A stretch of DNA of 10,233 bases. Origin: Oscillospiraceae bacterium. GTDB lineage: Bacteria > Bacillota > Clostridia > Oscillospirales > Oscillospiraceae. The stretch's first letter is position 1. Every line of letters starts with the position of its first letter. The position numbers and the translations under genes are program-made. The stretch lies in NCBI GenBank assembly GCA_017624645.1, contig JAGAMQ010000159.1, forward strand, positions 1 to 10,233, given 5' to 3'. Shown here one piece after another: positions 1-8,499 of this stretch. Below the pieces are notes generated by a model, which worked only from the letters and a program-made list of their open reading frames with translations, did not search any database and was not told the origin of the DNA.

Positions 1-732
1 CATCATGTACTCCTCCCACATAGCTTCGGTTTCTTCCACGATCTTATAGCGCTCGTACCGCTGGAAGTTCTTCACTTCCAGCTCATCGGGCTGCAGATAC
101 AGAGAATTGACCACATTGTGCTCACGCTCACCCTTGGTGCCGGTGAGGGCCCAGGGCTTTTCGTAGGTCTCGATCTCCGCATCCTCAAAGGAGATAGGCT
201 CCATCATCTGACCAATGGTGCCGTCTGCCAGGATCATGGAGGTCATACGGTACTTGTCCGCCAGATTGAAGCCTTTGATGGTCAGGCTTGCCATTTCCTG
301 CACAGAGGCAGGTGCCAGCACGATCATCCGGTAGTCACCGTGACCGCCGCCCTTGGTAGCCTGGAAATAGTCGGACTGGGAAGGCTGAATACCGCCCAAG
401 CCGGGACCGCCCCGCTGGACATTGACCACAAAGGCAGGCACATCGGAGCCTGCGATGTAGCTCAGACCCTCAGTCTTCAGAGAGATTCCGGGGCTGCTGG
501 AGGAGGTCATGACACGCATGCCGGCGGCAGCGGCGCCGTAGACCATGTTGATGGAAGCGATCTCACTTTCCGCCTGAAGGAATACACCGCCGATCTTGGG
601 CATCTTCTTTGCCATGTAAGCGGCGATCTCCGTCTGGGGAGTGATGGGATAACCGAAATAGTGACGGCAACCGGCACGGATCGCAGCCTCTGCGATGGCC
701 TCGTTACCCTTCATAAGTACACGTTCTGCCAT
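1..732 (-). CDS. vorB: 2-oxoacid:ferredoxin oxidoreductase, VorB/KorA-type subunit (partial, C-terminus outside window)
   Basis: This is the pyrimidine-domain subunit of a CoA-dependent 2-oxoacid:ferredoxin oxidoreductase, which interconverts a 2-oxoacid plus CoA with acyl-CoA, CO2 and reduced ferredoxin in the cytoplasm. The 244 visible residues begin MAERVLMKGNEAIAEAA and carry the family motif FGYPITPQTEI (about residues 26-36), then ESEIASINMVYGAAAAG, the SSSSPGISLK stretch and RGGPGLGGIQPSQSDY. The usual length is near 350-380 residues, so about a third is missing at the window edge. The ATG at 732 is fixed by an AAGGAGG site at 744-738, five bases upstream, which overlaps the stop codon of the ferredoxin gene and suggests translational coupling. 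Family resemblance is closest to the branched-chain (3-methyl-2-oxobutanoate) type, but 2-oxoglutarate or aromatic 2-oxoacid specificity cannot be excluded from this subunit alone. The TPP-binding and gamma subunits would be expected just beyond position 1. Confidence 0.93.
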   Translation of the reverse strand, partial: MAERVLMKGNEAIAEAAIRAGCRHYFGYPITPQTEIAAYMAKKMPKIGGVFLQAESEIASINMVYGAAAAGMRVMTSSSSPGISLKTEGLSYIAGSDVPAFVVNVQRGGPGLGGIQPSQSDYFQATKGGGHGDYRMIVLAPASVQEMASLTIKGFNLADKYRMTSMILADGTIGQMMEPISFEDAEIETYEKPWALTGTKGEREHNVVNSLYLQPDELEVKNFQRYERYKIVEETEAMWEEYMM

Positions 733-742
733 GGTAACCTCC

Positions 743-949
743 TTATTTCTCCACGGTGATGATGCAGTCCGGGCACATGGTTGCACAGAAAGCGCAGCCG
801 ATGCACTTTTCCTGATCGGTCATCACCGCAGGCGAATAACCCTTTGCGTTGATCTGATCCGCGGCAATGGCAAGGATGCCCTTGGGGCAGGCCGCCACAC
901 ACAGGCCGCAGCCCTTGCACAGATCGGTTTCAAATGTTAATTTTGCCAT
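743..949 (-). CDS. Two-[4Fe-4S] ferredoxin subunit of the 2-oxoacid oxidoreductase (VorD/KorD-like)
   Basis: A 68-residue bacterial-type ferredoxin with two complete cluster motifs: CKGCGLCVAACP (Cys 11, 14, 17, 21) and CIGCAFCATMCP (Cys 49, 52, 55, 59). Each motif supplies ligands for one [4Fe-4S] cluster. In the four-subunit 2-oxoacid:ferredoxin oxidoreductases this delta subunit passes electrons between the TPP-bound intermediate and free ferredoxin. It lies ten bases upstream of vorB, which is the usual gene order for this enzyme group. The start at 949 is supported by AAGGAGG at 963-957, seven bases upstream, overlapping the stop codon of the preceding ATPase gene. All eight cysteines are present, so it should be functional. 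A free-standing ferredoxin is an alternative, made less likely by the immediate linkage to vorB. Confidence 0.93.
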   Translation of the reverse strand: MAKLTFETDLCKGCGLCVAACPKGILAIAADQINAKGYSPAVMTDQEKCIGCAFCATMCPDCIITVEK

Positions 950-961
950 AAATGACCCTCC

Positions 962-1648
962 TTAAAAGATCTTCTGATCCGGTAAGTCGAAATATTTCTC
1001 CTGCAGCTGCAGGGGGAAAACATTGAAAATTTTGCCTTCCAGCAGGGGTGCCAGATCCGCTCTCACCGCAGTGAAGTACAGCGGCAGACCGGACTTTTCA
1101 CACAGCTCCCGGATAAACTCCTGAGATTCCAACAATACCTCCGGGTCCGTCGCGGGACCCAGATTGGAATTGTTGACAATGTCCGTAAAGGAAAGGCCGC
1201 AGGCCGCCTCAATCTCCCCCATGACCTCCAGCGCTTCTTCCGCTGTTCGGGTCAGAGGGCGGCAGCAGTTGGCAACGAAGATCATCCGGTAGTTGTTCTC
1301 CTCCCGGATGGCAGGCACATACCGCCCCAAGGCATAAGCGCCCCGGTCGTCGCCGCCGATGTCCATAATGCCGTACAGGCTTTTATCCTGCACCAGCCGG
1401 TAGATCTCCGCCGGCAGTGCCGGAAGATCCACATTGGTATTTGCAAACTGGGGACTGATCAGCTCCACCCCCGCCTTACTAAGCCTTTCGGCACTGTCAG
1501 CAGTGCGGAAATAGGGGTTAACGATGTCTAAGTCCCCGATGCAGGTCTTTTTACCCTCGTCAGCCAGCGCCACAGCGTAATTCACCGCAATGTTGGTCTT
1601 GCCGCTGCCGTAGTGACCGGCAAACAAAGTCAGTCGTTTATGTTCCAT
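962..1648 (-). CDS. P-loop ATPase of the MinD/ParA/CobQ-like superfamily, operon partner of VorB
   Basis: A 228-residue cytoplasmic P-loop NTPase. The Walker A motif is GHYGSGKT (residues 11-18). Further on come GDLDIVNPYF (38-47), in the position of the switch region of SIMIBI ATPases, and the Walker-B-like strand GIMDIGGDDRG (93-103). The second lysine of the deviant MinD/ParA Walker A (KGG at the motif start) is absent, so this is not a classical partitioning ATPase. No membrane segment or iron-sulfur ligand cluster is visible. Its function is not established from sequence. Its position between the acyl-CoA synthetases and the oxidoreductase subunits, with gaps of 9 and 12 bases, suggests a job in assembly, activation or cofactor loading of the oxidoreductase; that is inference. 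The start at 1648 follows AAGGTGG four bases upstream. Confidence 0.85.
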   Translation of the reverse strand: MEHKRLTLFAGHYGSGKTNIAVNYAVALADEGKKTCIGDLDIVNPYFRTADSAERLSKAGVELISPQFANTNVDLPALPAEIYRLVQDKSLYGIMDIGGDDRGAYALGRYVPAIREENNYRMIFVANCCRPLTRTAEEALEVMGEIEAACGLSFTDIVNNSNLGPATDPEVLLESQEFIRELCEKSGLPLYFTAVRADLAPLLEGKIFNVFPLQLQEKYFDLPDQKIF

Positions 1649-1657
1649 CGTACCACC

Positions 1658-3946
1658 TTACAGCTTCTTTCTAATAATTTTTCCGCTGGTGGTCTTGGGC
1701 AGGGATTCCTTAAATTCCACGATCCGGGGATACTTGTAGGGAGCGGTACGGGACTTGACATAGTCCTGAATCTGCTTTTTCAGCGCATCGGTGCCCTGGA
1801 AGTCCTTGACCAGCACAATGCTTGCCTTGACCACCTGACCCCGGATCTCGTCCGGTGCTGCGGACACGCCACATTCCAGCACATAGGGCAGCTCCATAAT
1901 GACATTTTCGATCTCAAAGGGTCCAATCCGGTAGCCGGAGGACTTGATCACATCGTCGGCTCTGCCCACATACCAGAAGAAGCCGTCCTCATCCTTCCAT
2001 GCCAGGTCACCGGTGTGGTAGAAGCCGTCCCGCCAGGTTTCGGCAGTGACTTCGGGGTTGCCCTCATAGCAGTAAGCAAGACCGCAGGGCAGGCCCTTGG
2101 AAATATCAATACAGATCTCGCCGCTTTCGCCGGGCTCCACTTCCTGTCCGTCGGGGTCCAGCAGGTGGACATCGTACAGAGGAACAGGCTTGCCCATAGA
2201 GCCGATCTTATGGCTGTCACCGATGAGATTGCCTATGATCAGGGTGCTTTCGGACTGACCGAAGCCCTCCATAATGTCCAGTCCCGTTGCCTTCTGGAAC
2301 TGGCGGAACACCTCGGGGTTCAGGGCCTCGCCGGCAATGGAGGCATGCTGCACCGAAGAAAGGTCAAACCGGGAAAGATCCTGCTTAATGAGCATCCGGT
2401 ACATAGTAGGCGGTGCGCAGAAGGTGGTGATGCCGTACTTGGCAAAGAGCGGCAGGATCTTCTCCGCATCAAAGCGGTCAAAGTCATAAACAAAGTTGGC
2501 AGCCTCGCAGAGCCACTGTCCGTAGAGCTTGCCCCACAGAGCCTTTGCCCAGCCGGTATCGGAGATGGTCAGATGCAGACCCTCGGGGTCTACCTGATGC
2601 CAGTATTTTGCGGTAATAAAGTGTCCCAGAGGATATTTGTAATTGTGGGCCGCCAGCTTGGGATATCCAGAGGTGCCGGAGGTGAAGAACATCAGCATGG
2701 GGTCTGAGCCGCAGGGGGCATCCTCCGTCCGGGGATAGCGGCTGCTGAACATGGGATATTCCTCATCAAAGTTGTGCCAACCTTCCCGGCTGCCCCCCAC
2801 AAGGATCTTATGCTGAAGCCCAGGACTTTTGGCGGCTGCTTCGTCCACAGCGTCTGCCACATCGCCGTCGGCGGTGCAGAGGATCGCCTTGACCTTGCCG
2901 GCTGCAAAGCGGTATGTAAAATCCTTTTCCAAAAGCTGATTGGTGGCAGGGATCGCCACAGCACCCAGCTTGTGCAAACCCAGAATAGCAAACCAGAACT
3001 GGTAGTGCCGCTTCAGCACCAGCATCACCCGGTCGCCCCGTTTGATACCAATGGACTTGAAGAAATTGGCTGCCCGGGCAGATTCCTTCATCATATCCTT
3101 GAAGGTGAAGCGCCGCTGGGTCATATCCTCGGACACATGGAGCATGGCAAGCTTATCCGGCTTCTCGGTACCCAGAGCATCCACCACATCAAAGGCAAAG
3201 TTGAACTGCTCTTCGTTCTGGAAATCGATGGCAGTAAGCTTGCCGTCGGTGACGGTAGGAGTAATAAACTTGCGATAGACCCGGGGTTTCTTTTCCGTCA
3301 GGTCCTTCTTGATGCCGGGAGTTGCCACCGCAGCTGCCTGCTCGCCCTCACGGGCAGCGGAGTTGCTCAAAACGATGGCGTAAAAAGCACAGTCTTCACC
3401 GTCCACAGCGATCATGCCGTGGGGGGTGGAAGAATCGTAGTAAATACAGTCGCCGGGGTGCAGCACCTCGGAGTGTCCGCCGATCTGGATGCGCATATGA
3501 CCCCGGATGACGATGTCGCACTCCTGACCCTCGTGGGTCACCAGCTGGATATCCTCATATTCCGCACCGCTTCTGTAGGCGATCTCCATGTAAAGAGGCA
3601 GAGCGATACGGTTCCGGAAGCCGGCGGCAAGGTTGAAGCCTACCATGTGGTGTGCTTCCTCGATGCGCTGACCGTCACCCTTACGGGTCAGGGCGTAGGA
3701 ACGAAGCTTGGGGCTTTTGCCCTCCAGCAGGTCGCCCATGTCCACGCCGAAGCTCAATGTACAGCGGTACAGGAAAGCGATGCTTAAGTTCCGGTTGCCC
3801 TCTTCGCACTGGGTATATTCTTCGACAGTCAAGTCGGTGCGCTGCGCCATCTCCTCCACGCTCAGGCCGGTAATGAGCCTAAGCTCCCGGATTCTAGCGG
3901 CAACTTCTTTTGTTTTGTAGTCCGCGCCGGTCATGTTCTGTTCCAT
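1658..3946 (-). CDS. XRE-HTH / cupin / AMP-forming acyl-CoA synthetase fusion (paralog 2 of the operon)
   Basis: A 762-residue three-part protein. Residues about 13-77 form an XRE-type helix-turn-helix (RIRELRLITGLSVEEMAQ, then the FGVDMGDLLEG ending typical of the fold). Residues about 130-195 form a cupin with HEGQECDIVIRG and a distal GDCIYYDSSTPHGM, as in XRE-cupin regulators of the PuuR/SutR type. Residues about 245-762 form an ANL-family ligase that makes acyl-CoA from acid, ATP and CoA. Its motifs are FTSGTSGYPK (421-430, P-loop), GFGQSES (561-567), YHTGD (643-647), GRADDVIKSSGYRIGPFEIE (661-680) and the catalytic lysine K756 in KTTSGKIIRKKL. The motif set matches medium-chain/branched acyl-CoA synthetases. 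Normal members are about 530-560 residues; the excess is the fused regulator. Met1 at 3946 has a weak AGAGG site; Met5 is an alternative. It has its own promoter (3998-4026) besides read-through from the T-box, and 9 bases separate it from the ATPase gene. Confidence 0.9.
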   Translation of the reverse strand: MEQNMTGADYKTKEVAARIRELRLITGLSVEEMAQRTDLTVEEYTQCEEGNRNLSIAFLYRCTLSFGVDMGDLLEGKSPKLRSYALTRKGDGQRIEEAHHMVGFNLAAGFRNRIALPLYMEIAYRSGAEYEDIQLVTHEGQECDIVIRGHMRIQIGGHSEVLHPGDCIYYDSSTPHGMIAVDGEDCAFYAIVLSNSAAREGEQAAAVATPGIKKDLTEKKPRVYRKFITPTVTDGKLTAIDFQNEEQFNFAFDVVDALGTEKPDKLAMLHVSEDMTQRRFTFKDMMKESARAANFFKSIGIKRGDRVMLVLKRHYQFWFAILGLHKLGAVAIPATNQLLEKDFTYRFAAGKVKAILCTADGDVADAVDEAAAKSPGLQHKILVGGSREGWHNFDEEYPMFSSRYPRTEDAPCGSDPMLMFFTSGTSGYPKLAAHNYKYPLGHFITAKYWHQVDPEGLHLTISDTGWAKALWGKLYGQWLCEAANFVYDFDRFDAEKILPLFAKYGITTFCAPPTMYRMLIKQDLSRFDLSSVQHASIAGEALNPEVFRQFQKATGLDIMEGFGQSESTLIIGNLIGDSHKIGSMGKPVPLYDVHLLDPDGQEVEPGESGEICIDISKGLPCGLAYCYEGNPEVTAETWRDGFYHTGDLAWKDEDGFFWYVGRADDVIKSSGYRIGPFEIENVIMELPYVLECGVSAAPDEIRGQVVKASIVLVKDFQGTDALKKQIQDYVKSRTAPYKYPRIVEFKESLPKTTSGKIIRKKL

Positions 3947-3964
3947 GAAAAACCTCTCAAAGTT

Positions 3965-3996
3965 CAGGTTAATCTGCGAAAAATTCCGCAGGTTAA
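3965..3996. promoter_or_regulatory. Direct repeats plus imperfect palindrome just downstream of the internal promoter (candidate operator)
   Basis: Two exact copies of CAGGTTAA lie at 3965-3972 and 3989-3996, 24 bases apart start to start. Between them is an imperfect palindrome with CTGCG/CGCAG arms at 3974-3978 and 3987-3991; allowing mismatches, 7 of 9 positions are symmetric. The block sits immediately downstream of the -10 box at 3998-4003, where a bound repressor would block transcription or an RNA hairpin could form in the 5' leader. Because the gene it precedes encodes an XRE-HTH domain, autoregulation is an attractive explanation, but nothing in the sequence proves binding. Confidence 0.4.
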
Positions 3997-3997
3997 A

Positions 3998-4026
3998 ATT
4001 TTATCACTATCAGAAAATCTTGTCAA
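3998..4026 (-). promoter_or_regulatory. Near-consensus sigma-70-type promoter for the second synthetase fusion gene
   Basis: On the minus strand a perfect -35 box TTGACA (4026-4021) is followed, after exactly 17 bases, by TAAAAT (4003-3998). This is the strongest promoter match in the window. Initiation would fall near 3991, about 45 bases before the ATG at 3946. It lies inside the operon, so the downstream genes (second synthetase, ATPase, ferredoxin, VorB) can be expressed independently of the T-box at 6371-6647. Confidence 0.75.
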
Positions 4027-4055
4027 TAAATCGGAAGAAATATTAAGGCACTCTC

Positions 4056-6323
4056 TTAAAGCTTATTGCGCATAATTTTTCCGGAGATGGTCTTGGGCAG
4101 TTCTGTACGGAATTCCACGATCCGGGGGTACTTGTAGGGCGCGGTGTGGTTCTTGACGTAGAGCTGGATCTCCTTCTTCAGCTCCTCGGTAGGCTCTGTG
4201 CCGGCAACCAGCACGATACACGCCTTGACCACCTGTCCCCGAACCTCGTCGGGAGCGGCGCAGACGCCACATTCCAGCACATAAGGCAGCTCCATGATGG
4301 TGGATTCGATCTCGAAGGGTCCGATACGGTAGCCGGAGGACTTGATCACATCGTCGGCTCTGCCCACATACCAGTAGTAGCCGTCCTCATCCCGCCATGC
4401 CACATCTCCGGTGTGGTACATGCCGTCATGCCACACAGCATCGGTGGCCTCCTGATTGCGGTAATAGCCAAGGAATACGCCGCAGGTGGGCTTGGGATCG
4501 GTACGGATGACGATTTCCCCGTTGACACCGTCCTCCACCGGGTTGCCGTCGGAATCCACGATATCAATACCGTAGCCGGGAACCGGCTTGCCCATCGCAC
4601 CGGGTTTGATATTGGCACCGTAGAGATTTGCAATGCCCAACGTCATTTCGGTCTGGCCGAAGCCTTCGTGGATCCGCAGACCGGTGGCCTTCTCGAACTG
4701 ATAGAAAACCTCCGGATTCAATGCCTCACCGGCGGTGGTGGCATGATGGATGGAGGAAAGATCGTACTTGCTCAGATCCTGCTTAATAAGCATCCGGTAC
4801 ATGGTAGGCGGTGCACAGAAGGTGGTAATGCCATACTTGGCAAACATGGGCAGGATCTTCTCCGCGTCGAAGCGGTCGAAATCATAGGTAAATACCGCAC
4901 CCTCACACAGCCACTGGCCGTAAAGCTTACCCCACAGGGCCTTGCCCCAGCCGGTTTCGGAGATGGTGAAGTGCAGGCCGTCCCGCTCACACAAATGCCA
5001 GTATTTGGCTGTGACATAATGTCCCAGGGCGTACTTATAGGAGTGGGTCGCCATCTTGGGATAACCGGTGGTGCCGGAGGTAAAGAGCATCAGCATAGGA
5101 TCGCTGCCGCAAGGTGCATCCTCCCTGCGCTCATAACGGCGGCTGAACAGACCGTATTCCTCATCGTAGTTGTGCCAGCCATCCCGGCTGCCGCCCACAA
5201 GAATCTTGGTCAGGTTCATGCCCGCAGACTTTTCTGCCAGTTCCACTTGGGCGGCGGTATCCCCATCCGCTGTACAAACAACAGCGCTCACATCCGCAGC
5301 CTGGAATCGGTAGACAAAATCATGCTCCATCAGCTGATTGGTGGCAGGAATGGCAATGGCGCCCAGCTTGTGCAGGCCCAGAATGGCAAACCAGAACTGG
5401 TAGTGACGCTTCAGCACCAGCATCACCCGGTCGCCCCGTTTGATACCCAGAGATTTGAAGTAGTTGGCACTCTGGGAGGAAGCATCCTTAATATTCTTAA
5501 AGGTAAAGCGCCGCTCCGTCATGTCGTTGGCCACGTGCACCATAGCCAGCCGGTCCGGCTCCTGCCGGGCGATGGCATCCACCGTATCAAAGGCAAAGTT
5601 GTAGTGGTCTGCATCCTCGAAGGACACATTCTGCAGGGTGCCCCGGTCATCTTCCTGTGCCTTGACGAACTTTTCGCACAGCAGCGGATGGGCATTGCGC
5701 ACCCGGGCACTCTGTCCTATGTAGAGCTTCTGATCGGTGGCATCGCTTGCCATGATCACGGCAAGGAACACACACTCCTGCCCATCAATGGCAATCATGC
5801 CATGGGGGGTAGAGGACTTGAAGAAGATGCTGTCACCCTCCCGGAGGATCTCCTCATGGTCGCCCACCCGGATGCGCATAGCACCCTTGATTACCATGTC
5901 AAATTCCTGACCGGCGTGGGTTGTGATGTGGATGGGCTTATCCTGCAGCTCGGCAGAATACTGATAGGTAACCCAGTAAGGGGTGGCAAGCTTCTTACGG
6001 AACATGGGAGCCATGTCCTGGATGGTGATGCCGTCCTCGCTGGCAGTTACAAGGCCCTTGCCCCGACGGGTAACGGTATAACCGGAAAGCTTGGCGCTGC
6101 GACCCTCCAGCAGCACGGTGATCTCCACGCCGAATATCTTGGCACAGTTGTGCATAAAGGTAAAGGGCAGATCCACAGTACCGGATTCGTACAGACAGTA
6201 GGTATCCTCCGTCAGTTCGGTCAGCTCCGCCATTTTCTGTATGCTGTAGCCCAGAATGTCACGCATATCCCGGATACGCATTGCCACATCCATCAGCTGG
6301 GTAGAGGGGTTCAAGTCTTTCAT
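4056..6323 (-). CDS. XRE-HTH / cupin / AMP-forming acyl-CoA synthetase fusion (paralog 1, directly behind the T-box)
   Basis: A 755-residue paralog of the next gene with the same three-part build. The XRE-like HTH spans residues about 14-75 (RIRDMRDILGYSIQKMAEL, ending FGVEITVLLEG). The cupin spans about 130-190 (HAGQEFDMVIKG and GDSIFFKSSTPHGM). The acyl-CoA synthetase runs from about 240 to 755, with LFTSGTTGYPK (413-423), GFGQTEM (554-560), YHTGD (636-640), GRADDVIKSSGYRIGPFEIE (654-673) and catalytic K749 in KTISGKIMRNKL. All ATP-, AMP- and CoA-step motifs are intact, so it should be an active acid:CoA ligase (AMP-forming). Substrate is not readable from motifs; branched short-chain acids fit the T-box and vorB context. 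The two paralogs are very similar in the synthetase half and much less so in the HTH, including the recognition-helix region. The ATG at 6323 has GAAAGGA about ten bases upstream and is the first gene after the T-box terminator (6371). Confidence 0.9.
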   Translation of the reverse strand: MKDLNPSTQLMDVAMRIRDMRDILGYSIQKMAELTELTEDTYCLYESGTVDLPFTFMHNCAKIFGVEITVLLEGRSAKLSGYTVTRRGKGLVTASEDGITIQDMAPMFRKKLATPYWVTYQYSAELQDKPIHITTHAGQEFDMVIKGAMRIRVGDHEEILREGDSIFFKSSTPHGMIAIDGQECVFLAVIMASDATDQKLYIGQSARVRNAHPLLCEKFVKAQEDDRGTLQNVSFEDADHYNFAFDTVDAIARQEPDRLAMVHVANDMTERRFTFKNIKDASSQSANYFKSLGIKRGDRVMLVLKRHYQFWFAILGLHKLGAIAIPATNQLMEHDFVYRFQAADVSAVVCTADGDTAAQVELAEKSAGMNLTKILVGGSRDGWHNYDEEYGLFSRRYERREDAPCGSDPMLMLFTSGTTGYPKMATHSYKYALGHYVTAKYWHLCERDGLHFTISETGWGKALWGKLYGQWLCEGAVFTYDFDRFDAEKILPMFAKYGITTFCAPPTMYRMLIKQDLSKYDLSSIHHATTAGEALNPEVFYQFEKATGLRIHEGFGQTEMTLGIANLYGANIKPGAMGKPVPGYGIDIVDSDGNPVEDGVNGEIVIRTDPKPTCGVFLGYYRNQEATDAVWHDGMYHTGDVAWRDEDGYYWYVGRADDVIKSSGYRIGPFEIESTIMELPYVLECGVCAAPDEVRGQVVKACIVLVAGTEPTEELKKEIQLYVKNHTAPYKYPRIVEFRTELPKTISGKIMRNKL

Positions 6324-6370: not shown

Positions 6371-6405
6371 AAAAAATCTCAAGAGCGCATACATTGCTCT
6401 TGAGA
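6371..6405 (-). terminator. T-box-controlled intrinsic terminator
   Basis: On the minus strand a 10-bp perfect stem (arms 6405-6396 and 6386-6377, CTCAAGAGC core) with a 9-base loop is followed by a run of T (6376-6371). Directly upstream is the antiterminator region 6434-6407, with GAGT/ACTC closing arms around the T-box bulge sequence. This layout makes termination conditional on tRNA charging. Confidence 0.9.
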
Positions 6406-6647
6406 CGAGTATGGTTCTACCCGCGGTACCACTCAAATTGCGGCAAGCGCCGCCTCTTTAGGCTCTAACAAGCCCTAGTCCTTAACGCGGACACACGGAG
6501 AAGGCTTACCTTTCGGCTCGCCGTCCCGGCTCGGAAGTGATGGGTCCTGTGGGACACGGAGCTGTCGGTTTGCACCAAACACCGACTCTCTGAAAATTCC
6601 GTCTTCCCGACCGTCTTCGTCTTCGCCTGTTACTTCTTTGGCATTGT
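6371..6647 (-). ncRNA. T-box riboswitch leader, predicted isoleucine specifier (AUC)
   Basis: Reading the minus strand, the leader contains a Stem I base GACGAAGACGG (6621-6611), the conserved distal segment AGAGAGTCGG with its TTTGGTGC loop and ACCGAC return, a GCGGC/GCCGC hairpin (Stem III, 6453-6440), the T-box GTGGTACCGCGGG and a terminator. The UGGU bulge would pair with an ACCA tRNA end having discriminator A. The specifier is placed at ATC (6541-6539), followed by A, because this triplet lies at the same distance from the CCGAG end of Stem I as CTG does in the second T-box of this window. AUC would read tRNA-Ile. The pairing just above the specifier loop is irregular, so the codon call is less sure than the riboswitch call (riboswitch about 0.97, codon about 0.6). 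It governs the synthetase/ATPase/ferredoxin/vorB operon. Confidence 0.95.
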
Positions 6648-6653
6648 AGAGAT

Positions 6654-6682
6654 AGTTTACCATGTCTTCGTGAGAAAGTCAA
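6654..6682 (-). promoter_or_regulatory. Promoter of the minus-strand T-box operon
   Basis: Minus-strand -35 TTGACT (6682-6677), 17-base spacer, -10 TAAACT (6659-6654). Initiation near 6647 would begin the transcript shortly before T-box Stem I, as expected. A second TTGACT lies further upstream (6759-6754) but has no good -10 box at the right distance. Confidence 0.65.
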
Positions 6683-6761: not shown

Positions 6762-6779
6762 CCCGGTTGACAAACCGGG
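6762..6779. repeat. Perfect inverted repeat over the -35 box of the plus-strand promoter
   Basis: CCCGGTT (6762-6768) and AACCGGG (6773-6779) form perfect 7-bp arms around GACA. The repeat contains the whole -35 element TTGACA (6767-6772), a position typical of a repressor operator. No regulator is identified; the fused XRE domains encoded on the other strand are possible candidates. Confidence 0.5.
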
Positions 6780-6801: not shown

Positions 6802-7072
6802 TATATAATATTGTAACGACGATGACGGAAATTTACCTTTTCCGGAAGCTTCAGAGAGCCGGCGGTGGGTGCGAGCCGGTGCGGAAGGTTTTGGTATTCT
6901 GATTCCCGAGTTGATCCTGCAAACACATCTGTCAGTAGTGGGATCCGGCTGCCTCCGTTACGGGCCGGAGCTTGTTGGAGCTTGACGAGTGATTCTCCCC
7001 CGGGAGAGTAATCAGGGTGGTACCGCGAATGTAAATTCGTCCCTGAGGTCTTCACGACCTCAGGGATTTTTT
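6802..7072 (+). ncRNA. T-box riboswitch leader, predicted leucine specifier (CUG)
   Basis: The plus-strand leader has a Stem I base GACGATGACGG (6818-6828), the conserved AGAGAGCCGG distal arm with its GGGTGCGAGCCGG return, a Stem III hairpin (GATTCTCCC/GGGAGAGTAATC), the canonical T-box AGGGTGGTACCGCG (7014-7027) and a terminator. TCAGGG (7012-7017) can pair with CCCTGA (7041-7046), which is also the 5' arm of the terminator, giving the mutually exclusive antiterminator. The specifier is placed at CTG (6899-6901) followed by A, at the same position relative to the CCGAG end of Stem I as ATC in the divergent T-box. CUG would read tRNA-Leu, fitting the LeuA-family gene downstream. The codon call is tentative (about 0.5): a neighbouring TTC triplet overlaps the same loop, and CUC is the more common Leu specifier. 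Confidence 0.95.
7041..7072 (+). terminator. T-box-controlled intrinsic terminator
   Basis: A 10-bp perfect stem (7041-7050 with 7056-7065, CCCTGAGGTC and complement), a 5-base loop and a run of six T at 7067-7072. Its 5' arm is shared with the antiterminator of the T-box. Confidence 0.93.
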
Positions 7073-7092: not shown

Positions 7093-8499
7093 ATGAAGAA
7101 AATCCGAATCAGCGATGTGACTATGAAGCAAACGGCACAGGGCTTTTCCCTGTCCTTCAAAGAGAAGATTGAACTGGCCAAGCTATTGGACCGGTTGGGC
7201 ACCGATCTCATTGAGCTGGAGGGGATCCGGAACCCCCGAATCGATTCCCTGCGGATCAAATCCATTGCCGCAGCTGTGGAAAACAGCACCGTTGCTGTCC
7301 CCGTGGACCTGAACCCGGACAGTGTGAGTGCAGTATGGTTAGCGTTGCAGCAGGCAAAGCATCCCCGGCTGCAGGTGTGTGCCTCCGTCAGTGCGGTGCA
7401 GATGGAGTATCTGTTCCACCGGAAGCCCGACGCCATGCTGGATGCCATCTCCAAAACCATTGCCGCCTGCCGGACCGTGTGTGAGGATGTGGAATTCGTT
7501 GCTGACGATGCCACCCGCAGCGAAAGTGCTTTTCTGCAGCAGGCAGTCACCGCCGCCATGGAAAGCGGTGCCACTACCGTTACCCTGTGTGACACCGCCG
7601 GCACTATGCTGCCTGCGGAATTTGCTCTCTTCCTGCAAGACCTTTATAAGGCAGTACCCGCCCTTTCGGAAGTCACTTTGGGCGTTTCCTGCGCCAATAC
7701 CCTTTCCATGGCAGATGCCTGCGCAATCGCCGCCGTGGCTGAGGGTGCCGCAGAACTGAAGGCCGCCGCTTATCCTTTGGATGGTGCCAGCCTTGCCAAT
7801 GTGGCAAAGCTTTTGGGTGCCAAGGCAGATGCCCTCCAAATTTCCTGCAACATCCGCCTGACCCAGCTGAGCCGGATCACAGAGCAGATCACATGGATGT
7901 GCCAGACCGGCAAGAACAAAGCCGCTCTGGAAGAAACCGAGCAGGATAACAGCGGCATCTTCCTCACCGCCCATGACGATATGACTGCGGTGTCTAACCT
8001 GGTGGAAAAACTGGGCTATGATCTTTCTCCGGAGGATACCCAGCGGGTCTATGATGCTTTCCGGCAGATCGCGGAAAAGAAGGAGCAGGTCAGCTCCAAG
8101 GAGCTGGACGCCATTGTAGCCTCCGCCGCCATGCAGGTGCCCTCCACCTATCAGCTGGACACCTATGTGGTCACCTCCGGCAACACCATCTCCGCCACCG
8201 CCCACATCAAGCTTCTGAAAAACGGGCAGCCTGTGGAGGGAGTTTGCATCGGTGACGGCTCCATTGACGCGGCATTTCTTGCCATTGAAAAAATTACCGG
8301 CTGCCACTACGAGCTGGACGACTTCCAGCTTCAGGCAGTGACTGAAGGCCGGGAGGCTATGGGTCAGACGGTGGTAAAGCTTCGCTCCGGCGGCAAGCTC
8401 TACTCGGGCAGAGGCATCTCCACAGACATCGTGGGTGCCGGTATCCATGCCTACCTCAGCGCCCTGAACAAGATCCTTTATGAGGAGGAAGAAGAATGA
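7093..8499 (+). CDS. LeuA-family (2-isopropylmalate synthase-like) protein with degenerate active site and intact leucine-regulatory domain
   Basis: A 468-residue protein collinear with 2-isopropylmalate synthase. It has an N-terminal HMGL-like TIM barrel (about 1-250; e.g. VEFVADDATRS 133-143 and AAMESGATTVTLCDTAGTM 154-172), a linker subdomain (about 255-345) and a C-terminal LeuA allosteric/dimer domain (about 350-465; GDGSIDAAFLAIEKITG 387-403, GRGISTDIVGAGIHAYL 439-455). The catalytic signatures are gone. The family DTTLRDGEQ is DVTMKQTAQ (8-16), replacing the metal-ligand Asp by Gln13 and the catalytic Arg by Lys12. The HxH metal motif is SCA (199-201). The GxGERxGN region is replaced by YPLDGASLAN (227-236). 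Claisen condensation of acetyl-CoA with 2-oxoisovalerate is therefore unlikely; a leucine-sensing regulatory or scaffold role is inferred. Leader T-box, AAAGGAG site (7076-7082) and the ATGA overlap with the next gene indicate one co-regulated unit. It is slightly shorter than typical LeuA (about 510). Confidence 0.88.
   Translation: MKKIRISDVTMKQTAQGFSLSFKEKIELAKLLDRLGTDLIELEGIRNPRIDSLRIKSIAAAVENSTVAVPVDLNPDSVSAVWLALQQAKHPRLQVCASVSAVQMEYLFHRKPDAMLDAISKTIAACRTVCEDVEFVADDATRSESAFLQQAVTAAMESGATTVTLCDTAGTMLPAEFALFLQDLYKAVPALSEVTLGVSCANTLSMADACAIAAVAEGAAELKAAAYPLDGASLANVAKLLGAKADALQISCNIRLTQLSRITEQITWMCQTGKNKAALEETEQDNSGIFLTAHDDMTAVSNLVEKLGYDLSPEDTQRVYDAFRQIAEKKEQVSSKELDAIVASAAMQVPSTYQLDTYVVTSGNTISATAHIKLLKNGQPVEGVCIGDGSIDAAFLAIEKITGCHYELDDFQLQAVTEGREAMGQTVVKLRSGGKLYSGRGISTDIVGAGIHAYLSALNKILYEEEEE

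Follow-up and report, generated by a model that had tools for sequence, protein, structure and literature searches.

Two characterized acyl-CoA synthetases stand closest to the proteins described here. MacsMa, whose structure is 3etc, is described in PMC10455477 as preferring 2-methylbutyrate and as depending critically on Trp259, and MbcS of Staphylococcus aureus is described in PMC10026030 as selectively activating 2-methylbutyrate and isobutyrate. For rumen microbes, the conversion of 2-methylbutyrate to isoleucine (Ile), of isobutyrate to valine (Val) and of isovalerate to leucine (Leu) is reported in PMC7356843, and reductive carboxylation has been proposed as the Ile step in Methanobrevibacter (PMC2812497). 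The formation of these three amino acids from the three acids is thus already published (PMC7356843, PMC2812497), and the ruminococcal isovalerate work cited there dates from 1962. In T-box leaders, the amino acid given by the specifier codon is that of the pathway to which the controlled gene belongs (PMC2494555); neither 'acyl' nor 'CoA' appears as a word in the main text of that paper. Here we report on a stretch of 10,233 nucleotides from an Oscillospiraceae bacterium (contig JAGAMQ010000159.1 of assembly GCA_017624645.1; its full length is called the window below), in which two tandem minus-strand genes, first B and then A, encode an XRE-like helix-turn-helix (HTH) and a cupin in front of an AMP-forming acyl-CoA synthetase. 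We consider it likely that both proteins are CoA synthetases for branched short-chain acids which serve an anabolic, T-box-controlled salvage, and that the XRE-cupin part is a module of the enzyme. The features on which this reading is based are the following.

4056..6323, minus strand: gene B, XRE-cupin-acyl-CoA synthetase of 755 amino acids (aa), predicted 2-methylbutyryl-CoA synthetase of the Ile branch
6102..6308, minus strand: XRE-like HTH of B, residues 6-74, with acidic recognition helix
5748..6074, minus strand: cupin of B, residues 84-192, with invariant H136, E140 and H174
4059..5636, minus strand: AMP-forming acyl-CoA synthetase part of B, residues 230-755
4944..4946, minus strand: Gly460 codon of B, sole catalytic position separating Ile-type and Val-type paralogues
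6398..6632, minus strand: T-box leader of gene B, specifier AUC (Ile), 81.6 bits, E 6.8e-17, Rfam gathering score 93
6654..6682, minus strand: promoter-like TTGACT-17-TAAACT ahead of the Ile T-box, found by eye
1658..3946, minus strand: gene A, XRE-cupin-acyl-CoA synthetase of 762 aa, predicted isobutyryl-CoA synthetase of the Val branch, without a T-box of its own in the window
3719..3925, minus strand: XRE-like HTH of A, residues 8-76
3362..3691, minus strand: cupin of A, about residues 86-195
1661..3238, minus strand: acyl-CoA synthetase part of A, about residues 237-762
2546..2548, minus strand: Ala467 codon of A, counterpart of Gly460 of B
3998..4026, minus strand: promoter-like TTGACA-17-TAAAAT ahead of gene A, found by eye
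6813..7047, plus strand: divergent T-box leader, specifier CUG (Leu), 106.5 bits (Rfam)

An earlier interpretation of the letters of this DNA (the sequence-only reading) had proposed a complete XRE-HTH plus cupin ahead of a full acyl-CoA synthetase with intact catalytic motifs in both open reading frames, and coordinates, Pfam matches and AlphaFold models agree with this architecture. AMP-binding, AMP-binding_C and Cupin_2 exceeded their Pfam cut-offs in A and in B, and the match to HTH_19 was weaker (E 4.9e-6 for A and 7e-5 for B, both under the gathering score); at E 0.001, HTH_19 was detected in 59 and Cupin_2 in all of 62 aligned relatives. In both AlphaFold models, residues 6-73 form five helices of the XRE type and a cupin barrel is present as well, the combination typical of XRE-cupin regulators, and the HTH is confidently predicted, the N-terminal part modelled alone reaching a mean pLDDT of 90; the full-length model had a pTM of 0.66 and its arrangement of module versus ligase was therefore not used. 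Domains over the cut-off, catalytic motifs and the C-terminal Lys place the remainder among the AMP-forming acyl-CoA synthetases of the ANL superfamily, and S416, G417, T418, G556, D640 and K749 are invariant across 62 aligned rows. The duplication of the pair and the greater divergence of its front halves had been recognized as well: an alignment of A with B over 751 columns gives 60% identity, with 43% for the HTH and 40% for the cupin versus 67% for the N-terminal and 79% for the C-terminal part of the ligase.

The N-terminal 230 residues match 3610 proteins, and AMP-binding is present in all 120 among the matches listed. Named loci, on which all named-locus counts below are based, were the best 80 kept of 575 encoding a relative; in these 80 no stop interrupts the B frame between the HTH and the ligase part, ten of the frames reaching a contig end. 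The fusion is therefore not an assembly artefact. Separate translation of the N-terminal part was also considered and discarded, as B frames are unbroken or run off the contig and, by eye, no Met lies near the linker of A or B. All of the best 80 named loci carry the fusion, many of them from gut samples of sheep, goat, deer, buffalo, yak or horse, and an N-terminal match, fused or not, was obtained in 141 of 291 genomes of the class, a sample that may overlap with the named loci. The fusion is widespread in gut Clostridia.

An element missing from the sequence-only reading is the T-box leader of gene B. Its specifier AUC, and the CUG of the divergent leader, were read on the Rfam alignment. 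The B orthologues are preceded by a T-box in 80/80 named loci, 72 times by the exact motif and eight times by a variant, and the specifier is ATC in 78 of 79 readable cases, with CTC in L081; that of L084 is cut off. Rfam detected a T-box in 12/12 named loci tested, and B leaders of relatives lay over the gathering score in 8/11 loci, the cut-off L084 not being counted. A T-box of their own was found for 38 of 52 A orthologues, and all 38 specify Val (27 GTA, 11 GTC); 13 of the 14 T-box-less A orthologues follow B at a distance of less than 200 nt, like gene A of the window. Specifiers were settled by eye for the A T-boxes of L043, L075, L088 and L092 and for the B T-boxes of L086, L101, L039, L044 and L068, and that of the A T-box of L095 was read by eye as GTC. 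Among 80 fused genes of the class (the window included), which were taken in rank order among the matches listed with contig-edge cases skipped, 67 leaders were readable by script, 49 as Ile and 18 as Val. The remainder comprised three with an Ile signature, two that were too short (L167, L169) and eight for which no T-box was found (L189-L193, L205, L210, L211), whose substrate may differ. For the LeuA-like genes that accompany the pair at 38 named loci, Leu was obtained in 28 of 29 script readings; in L095 the script gave ACA, which is off-motif, and of the nine genes unread by script two (L025, L040) are Leu by eye and the other seven lack the exact motif or upstream sequence. This locus thus combines a Leu and an Ile switch, joined in most relatives by one for Val.

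The two types also differ within the enzyme. When the full-length sequences of the named loci (125/134) were compared, with a position called fixed at at least 90% in both types, seven positions were fixed differently between the paralogues, six in the N-terminal module and one beside the acyl pocket. This sole position of the catalytic half is Gly460 in 74/74 B-type and Ala467 in 51/51 A-type sequences; in genomes of the class it is Gly in 19/19 Ile types (L002-L020, 17 being Ile by script and L003 and L004 by a variant T-box) and Ala in 18/18 Val types. The best solved relative of B is 3etc (E 2.8e-183, residues 231-752), in which the position aligns with the Gly just before Lys256, four residues ahead of Trp259 (numbering from the PDB entry title and PMC10455477). 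A Gly at this place would leave room for one extra carbon, fitting 2-methylbutyrate versus isobutyrate. In a tree of 197 N-terminal columns, made by a quick method with 45/108 inner branches weak and long branches flagged, the Ile/Val label changes once among the labelled rows, which are those with a readable specifier (win_A, L022_A and L095_A are unlabelled), and eight times if unlabelled rows are treated as a third group; the single change therefore points to one old duplication, and the counts given above are not independent.

The genes that flank the pair are the following.

962..1648, minus strand: P-loop NTPase of ParA/MinD-like type, 9 nt downstream of gene A
743..949, minus strand: ferredoxin-like protein of 68 aa with two 4Fe-4S-type cysteine clusters, found by eye
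1..732, minus strand: VorB-like subunit of a 2-oxoacid:ferredoxin oxidoreductase, truncated at the window edge
7093..8499, plus strand: LeuA (2-isopropylmalate synthase)-like protein of 468 aa
8496..10232, plus strand: fusion of a xylose-isomerase-like TIM barrel with an AMP-binding enzyme, truncated at the window edge

The NTPase occurs in 60 and VorB in 58 of the 80 named loci, and of the 20 loci without the NTPase 14 have less than 300 nt of contig left. It is an NTPase of the ParA/MinD type that stands between the synthetases and the oxidoreductase. On the plus strand, the TIM barrel-AMP-binding fusion directly follows the LeuA-like gene under the Leu T-box, and relatives of the LeuA-like gene and of the TIM part are both found in 38/80 named loci.

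The distribution of ilvC and ilvD was compared with that of the fusion, whose presence in genomes of the class was judged by open-frame length among the matches listed. An ilvD match over the cut-off was found in 15/65 fused versus 141/224 non-fused genomes (Fisher p 1.5e-8, which is optimistic because the genomes are related); two ambiguous genomes (G047, G131) were excluded, and a single ilvD match under the cut-off was scored absent. After variant T-boxes had been taken into account, a hand count gave ilvD in 7/56 genomes with a T-box-fused gene and in 7/8 with a T-box-less fused gene (G051 left out). Among 33 chosen genomes, 18 had the full-length fusion, seven ilvC plus ilvD and eight neither, many of the fused ones having been picked for being fused; none combines the fusion with ilvC or ilvD over the cut-off, and weak ilvC matches far under it occur in 5/18 fused ones (G008, G041, G114, G203, G274). 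A strict exclusion of ilvCD by the fusion, which holds in these 33 genomes, fails class-wide (15/65). In the window's own genome, which is 68% complete, neither ilvC nor ilvD was found, and of 13 genomes of the same genus two have ilvC plus ilvD without the fusion, five the fusion without either and six none of these. Eight genomes of the same genus or order (G291, G292, G293, G295, G296, G300, G306, G307) show no full-length fusion and no ilvC or ilvD over the cut-off, and are perhaps Ile/Val auxotrophs, or incomplete.

Based on the T-box specifiers, the Gly/Ala position beside the 3etc acyl pocket, the downstream oxidoreductase and the depletion of ilvD, the most likely substrates are 2-methylbutyrate for B, in a route to Ile, and isobutyrate for A, in a route to Val, both routes proceeding by reductive carboxylation. 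For the exact acids, the direction of the oxidoreductase and the transamination we infer the following route. When uncharged tRNA-Ile rises, the T-box would let transcription through and B would make 2-methylbutyryl-CoA; in most relatives, uncharged tRNA-Val would likewise lead to expression of A and to isobutyryl-CoA. Ferredoxin and the 2-oxoacid:ferredoxin oxidoreductase would then carry out reductive carboxylation to 2-oxo-3-methylvalerate and 2-oxoisovalerate, which would be transaminated to Ile and Val, respectively. The divergence of the front halves, which had been explained by one chemistry kept for different targets, is better read as one chemistry for different acids of the Ile and Val branches. 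The best NCBIfam match of both proteins is MbcS (NF047394), with 418.1 and 430.5 bits, well below the equivalog cut-off of 850. Since this nearest characterized family supplies branched acyl-CoA for membrane fatty acids in S. aureus (PMC10026030), the synthetases might do the same or feed energy metabolism rather than amino acid formation, but control by Ile and Val T-boxes, the adjoining LeuA-like operon with its Leu T-box, the co-located VorB-like oxidoreductase and the depletion of ilvD make such a role very improbable.

The N-terminal module also exists as a separate gene. At 20 such loci, picked from the same N-terminal matches listed for genomes of the class, an unfused synthetase follows directly in 18; these synthetases are 52-59% identical (50% in the cut L104), and at two of the loci the T-box reads Ile by eye and Gly occupies the pocket-side position. 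As stand-alone module genes precede unfused synthetases, the module appears to be a long-standing partner of the enzyme.

The HTH of this module departs from the DNA-reading kind. The usual XRE recognition helix S/T-R-Q-x-V/I-S-K is not matched and Gln28 is lost, as judged by a sequence test, and control XRE domains carry Arg, Gln and Lys where the recognition helix of the module is acidic. Acidic residues occupy helix positions 39/40/41 in 66/73/19% of B types (n=74, those of 81 sequences that fitted the pattern), in 38/68/96% of A types (n=53) and in 35/75/80% of stand-alone relatives (n=20), as compared to 4/4/0% of control XRE domains (n=26), the controls being top HTH_3 matches in 20 relatives and not XRE-cupins in particular. 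The mean net charge of the 55-aa HTH is -5.2 for B, -5.1 for A and -6.7 for stand-alone forms versus -0.4 for 27/29 control domains, among them the wrongly extracted L133.

Two inverted repeats, at 3965-3996 and 6762-6779, had been put forward as binding sites for the HTH. The first one contains the following feature.

3974..3991, minus strand: 5'-UTR hairpin of gene A, inside the proposed operator, sequence not conserved

This hairpin varies in sequence and is absent in several relatives, and the inverted repeat is read as a variable hairpin of the 5'-untranslated region. A promoter plus hairpin at the transcript start of gene A was seen in the window, L022, L024, L031 and L044, three of which share TCCGG arms, and a strong hairpin was not predicted in L026, L027, L033, L034 and L036. 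The second site surrounds the -35-like word of the divergent Leu T-box promoter, and by eye the word recurs in relatives and the inverted repeat does not. Inspection by eye and by script revealed no shared operator ahead of A in the intergenic regions of 13 relatives with a gap below 200 nt, nor ahead of B in the promoter regions of 23 loci of L022-L047 with the exact motif. The spacer of the B promoter (6654-6682) holds the word GACATG before the -10 element; it recurs in the closest relatives and fades in others, and was not called an operator. This promoter is partly duplicated in L039 and L027.

With an acidic recognition helix and no operator detected, the HTH is a doubtful DNA binder. 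The sequence-only reading had suggested a trigger enzyme that senses its acid, acyl-CoA or acyl-AMP and regulates transcription directly. In such a model the XRE part would bind DNA, the cupin or the ligase would do the sensing, and the protein would act as a repressor of its own operon or of related ones. The fusion itself is confirmed, and the direct control of transcription by DNA binding is not supported, the T-boxes already accounting for transcription control. A trigger enzyme would suit the true XRE homology, the confident HTH model, the position of the stand-alone module gene directly before an acyl-CoA synthetase gene in 18/20 loci, which is a usual layout of a local regulator, and the promoter with a hairpin where the gene A transcript begins, which recurs in four relatives. 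Against it stand the acidic recognition helix and the net charge of -5 to -7 in fused and stand-alone forms alike, the T-boxes that already control the genes, the variation of the inverted repeat, the five relatives for which no strong hairpin is predicted and the 23 loci in which no shared operator was seen upstream of B. We therefore regard a trigger enzyme as unlikely.

In the cupin part, the triad H136-E140-H174 is invariant in 52/52 rows, stand-alone forms included, and in 47/47, 18/18 and 20/20 sequences of a further count; the cupin is a probable binding site for a metal and a small ligand. Of the six N-terminal positions that differ between the paralogues of the named loci, 96, 99, 111 and 116, all in the cupin part, still separate Ile and Val types class-wide, and 58 and 93 do not. 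In structure comparisons the hydroxypropylphosphonic acid epoxidase HppE was the top Foldseek match and tied with Psf4 in a second comparison; both are iron enzymes. HppE is an XRE-cupin protein that works as an enzyme and not as a DNA-reading regulator, with 2-His-1-Glu as ligands, and the corresponding residues, as far as residues go, are present in the module of A and B. A metal-dependent HppE-like activity on the same acid or on a second pathway substrate would fit this match, the sequence alignment over both domains and the invariant triad, but the identity is about 21%, the whole-length TM-score of about 0.5 with an rmsd of about 14 shows that the two domains are set differently, and His-Glu-His-type triads are common in other cupins. 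As, moreover, the proposed route already has all its chemical steps and the hosts are anaerobes whereas the HppE reaction requires an oxidant, we give such an activity very little credence.

For the module we infer instead a former regulator that would now serve regulation or assembly of the synthetase, its HTH being devoid of the usual DNA-reading residues. More tentatively, and less likely than not, it may have become allosteric: the XRE part would serve assembly, and the metal-bound cupin would sense Ile, Val, a 2-oxoacid or an acyl-CoA and gate adenylation, differently in the two paralogues. If so, control would have two layers, tRNA charging setting the amount and the cupin the activity of the enzyme.

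Several observations weigh against a T-box-controlled anabolic salvage with an enzyme-bound module. The Ile T-box of the window lies below the Rfam gathering score (81.6 versus 93 bits), and gene A has a promoter and no T-box there, so that its assignment to Val comes from the orthologues and from Ala467. In L081 the T-box of an Ile-type gene (4535-4784) reads CTC (Leu) and not ATC. The Gly/Ala and Ile/Val splits both follow the one ancient duplication and are not independent events, and the stand-alone pairs do not share one residue at the Gly/Ala position (Gly in 10, Ala in 7, Met in 1). Six loci (L071, L072, L074, L084, L086, L087) have more than 3.5 kb behind the pair and neither NTPase nor VorB, and oxidoreductases of the 2-oxoacid:ferredoxin type run in both directions. 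The link between fusion and loss of ilvD is not absolute, because 15/65 fused genomes keep ilvD and because it is present in 7/8 genomes of the eight fused genes for which no T-box was found. Finally, an acidic HTH does not prove that the ability to bind DNA is lost, and a local regulator, too, would be expected to show an XRE-cupin gene immediately ahead of a synthetase gene.

T-box specifiers provide a sequence-based assignment of an acyl-CoA synthetase to an amino acid across gut Clostridia, together with a single residue to test; the assignment would explain life without ilvCD, and the N-terminal module would exemplify a regulator fold that has been recruited into an enzyme. In a literature search of open-licence papers, no description of the fusion or of T-box-controlled acyl-CoA synthetases was found; the parts are of known kinds, and that search brought up neither their combination nor the T-box-based assignment nor the one-residue rule.

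In comparison with known systems, the leaders resemble the Firmicutes T-box leaders of amino acid genes (RF00230), in which, as proposed here, the specifier codon names the amino acid pathway of the controlled gene. MacsMa of Methanosarcina acetivorans (3etc) shares with B the Gly at the Gly/Ala position and differs in being archaeal and in its solved chain of 580 residues without an XRE-cupin module. MbcS of S. aureus likewise differs from A and B in lacking an XRE-cupin part in its 525-position model, and in feeding fatty acid synthesis. The hydroxypropylphosphonic acid epoxidases HppE and Psf4 combine, like the module of A and B, an XRE-like domain with a cupin bearing HxGxE...H, but as a separate protein. 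XRE-cupin transcription regulators such as 1y9q have domain order and fold in common with the module, which is set apart from them by its fusion to an enzyme and by its acidic recognition helix.

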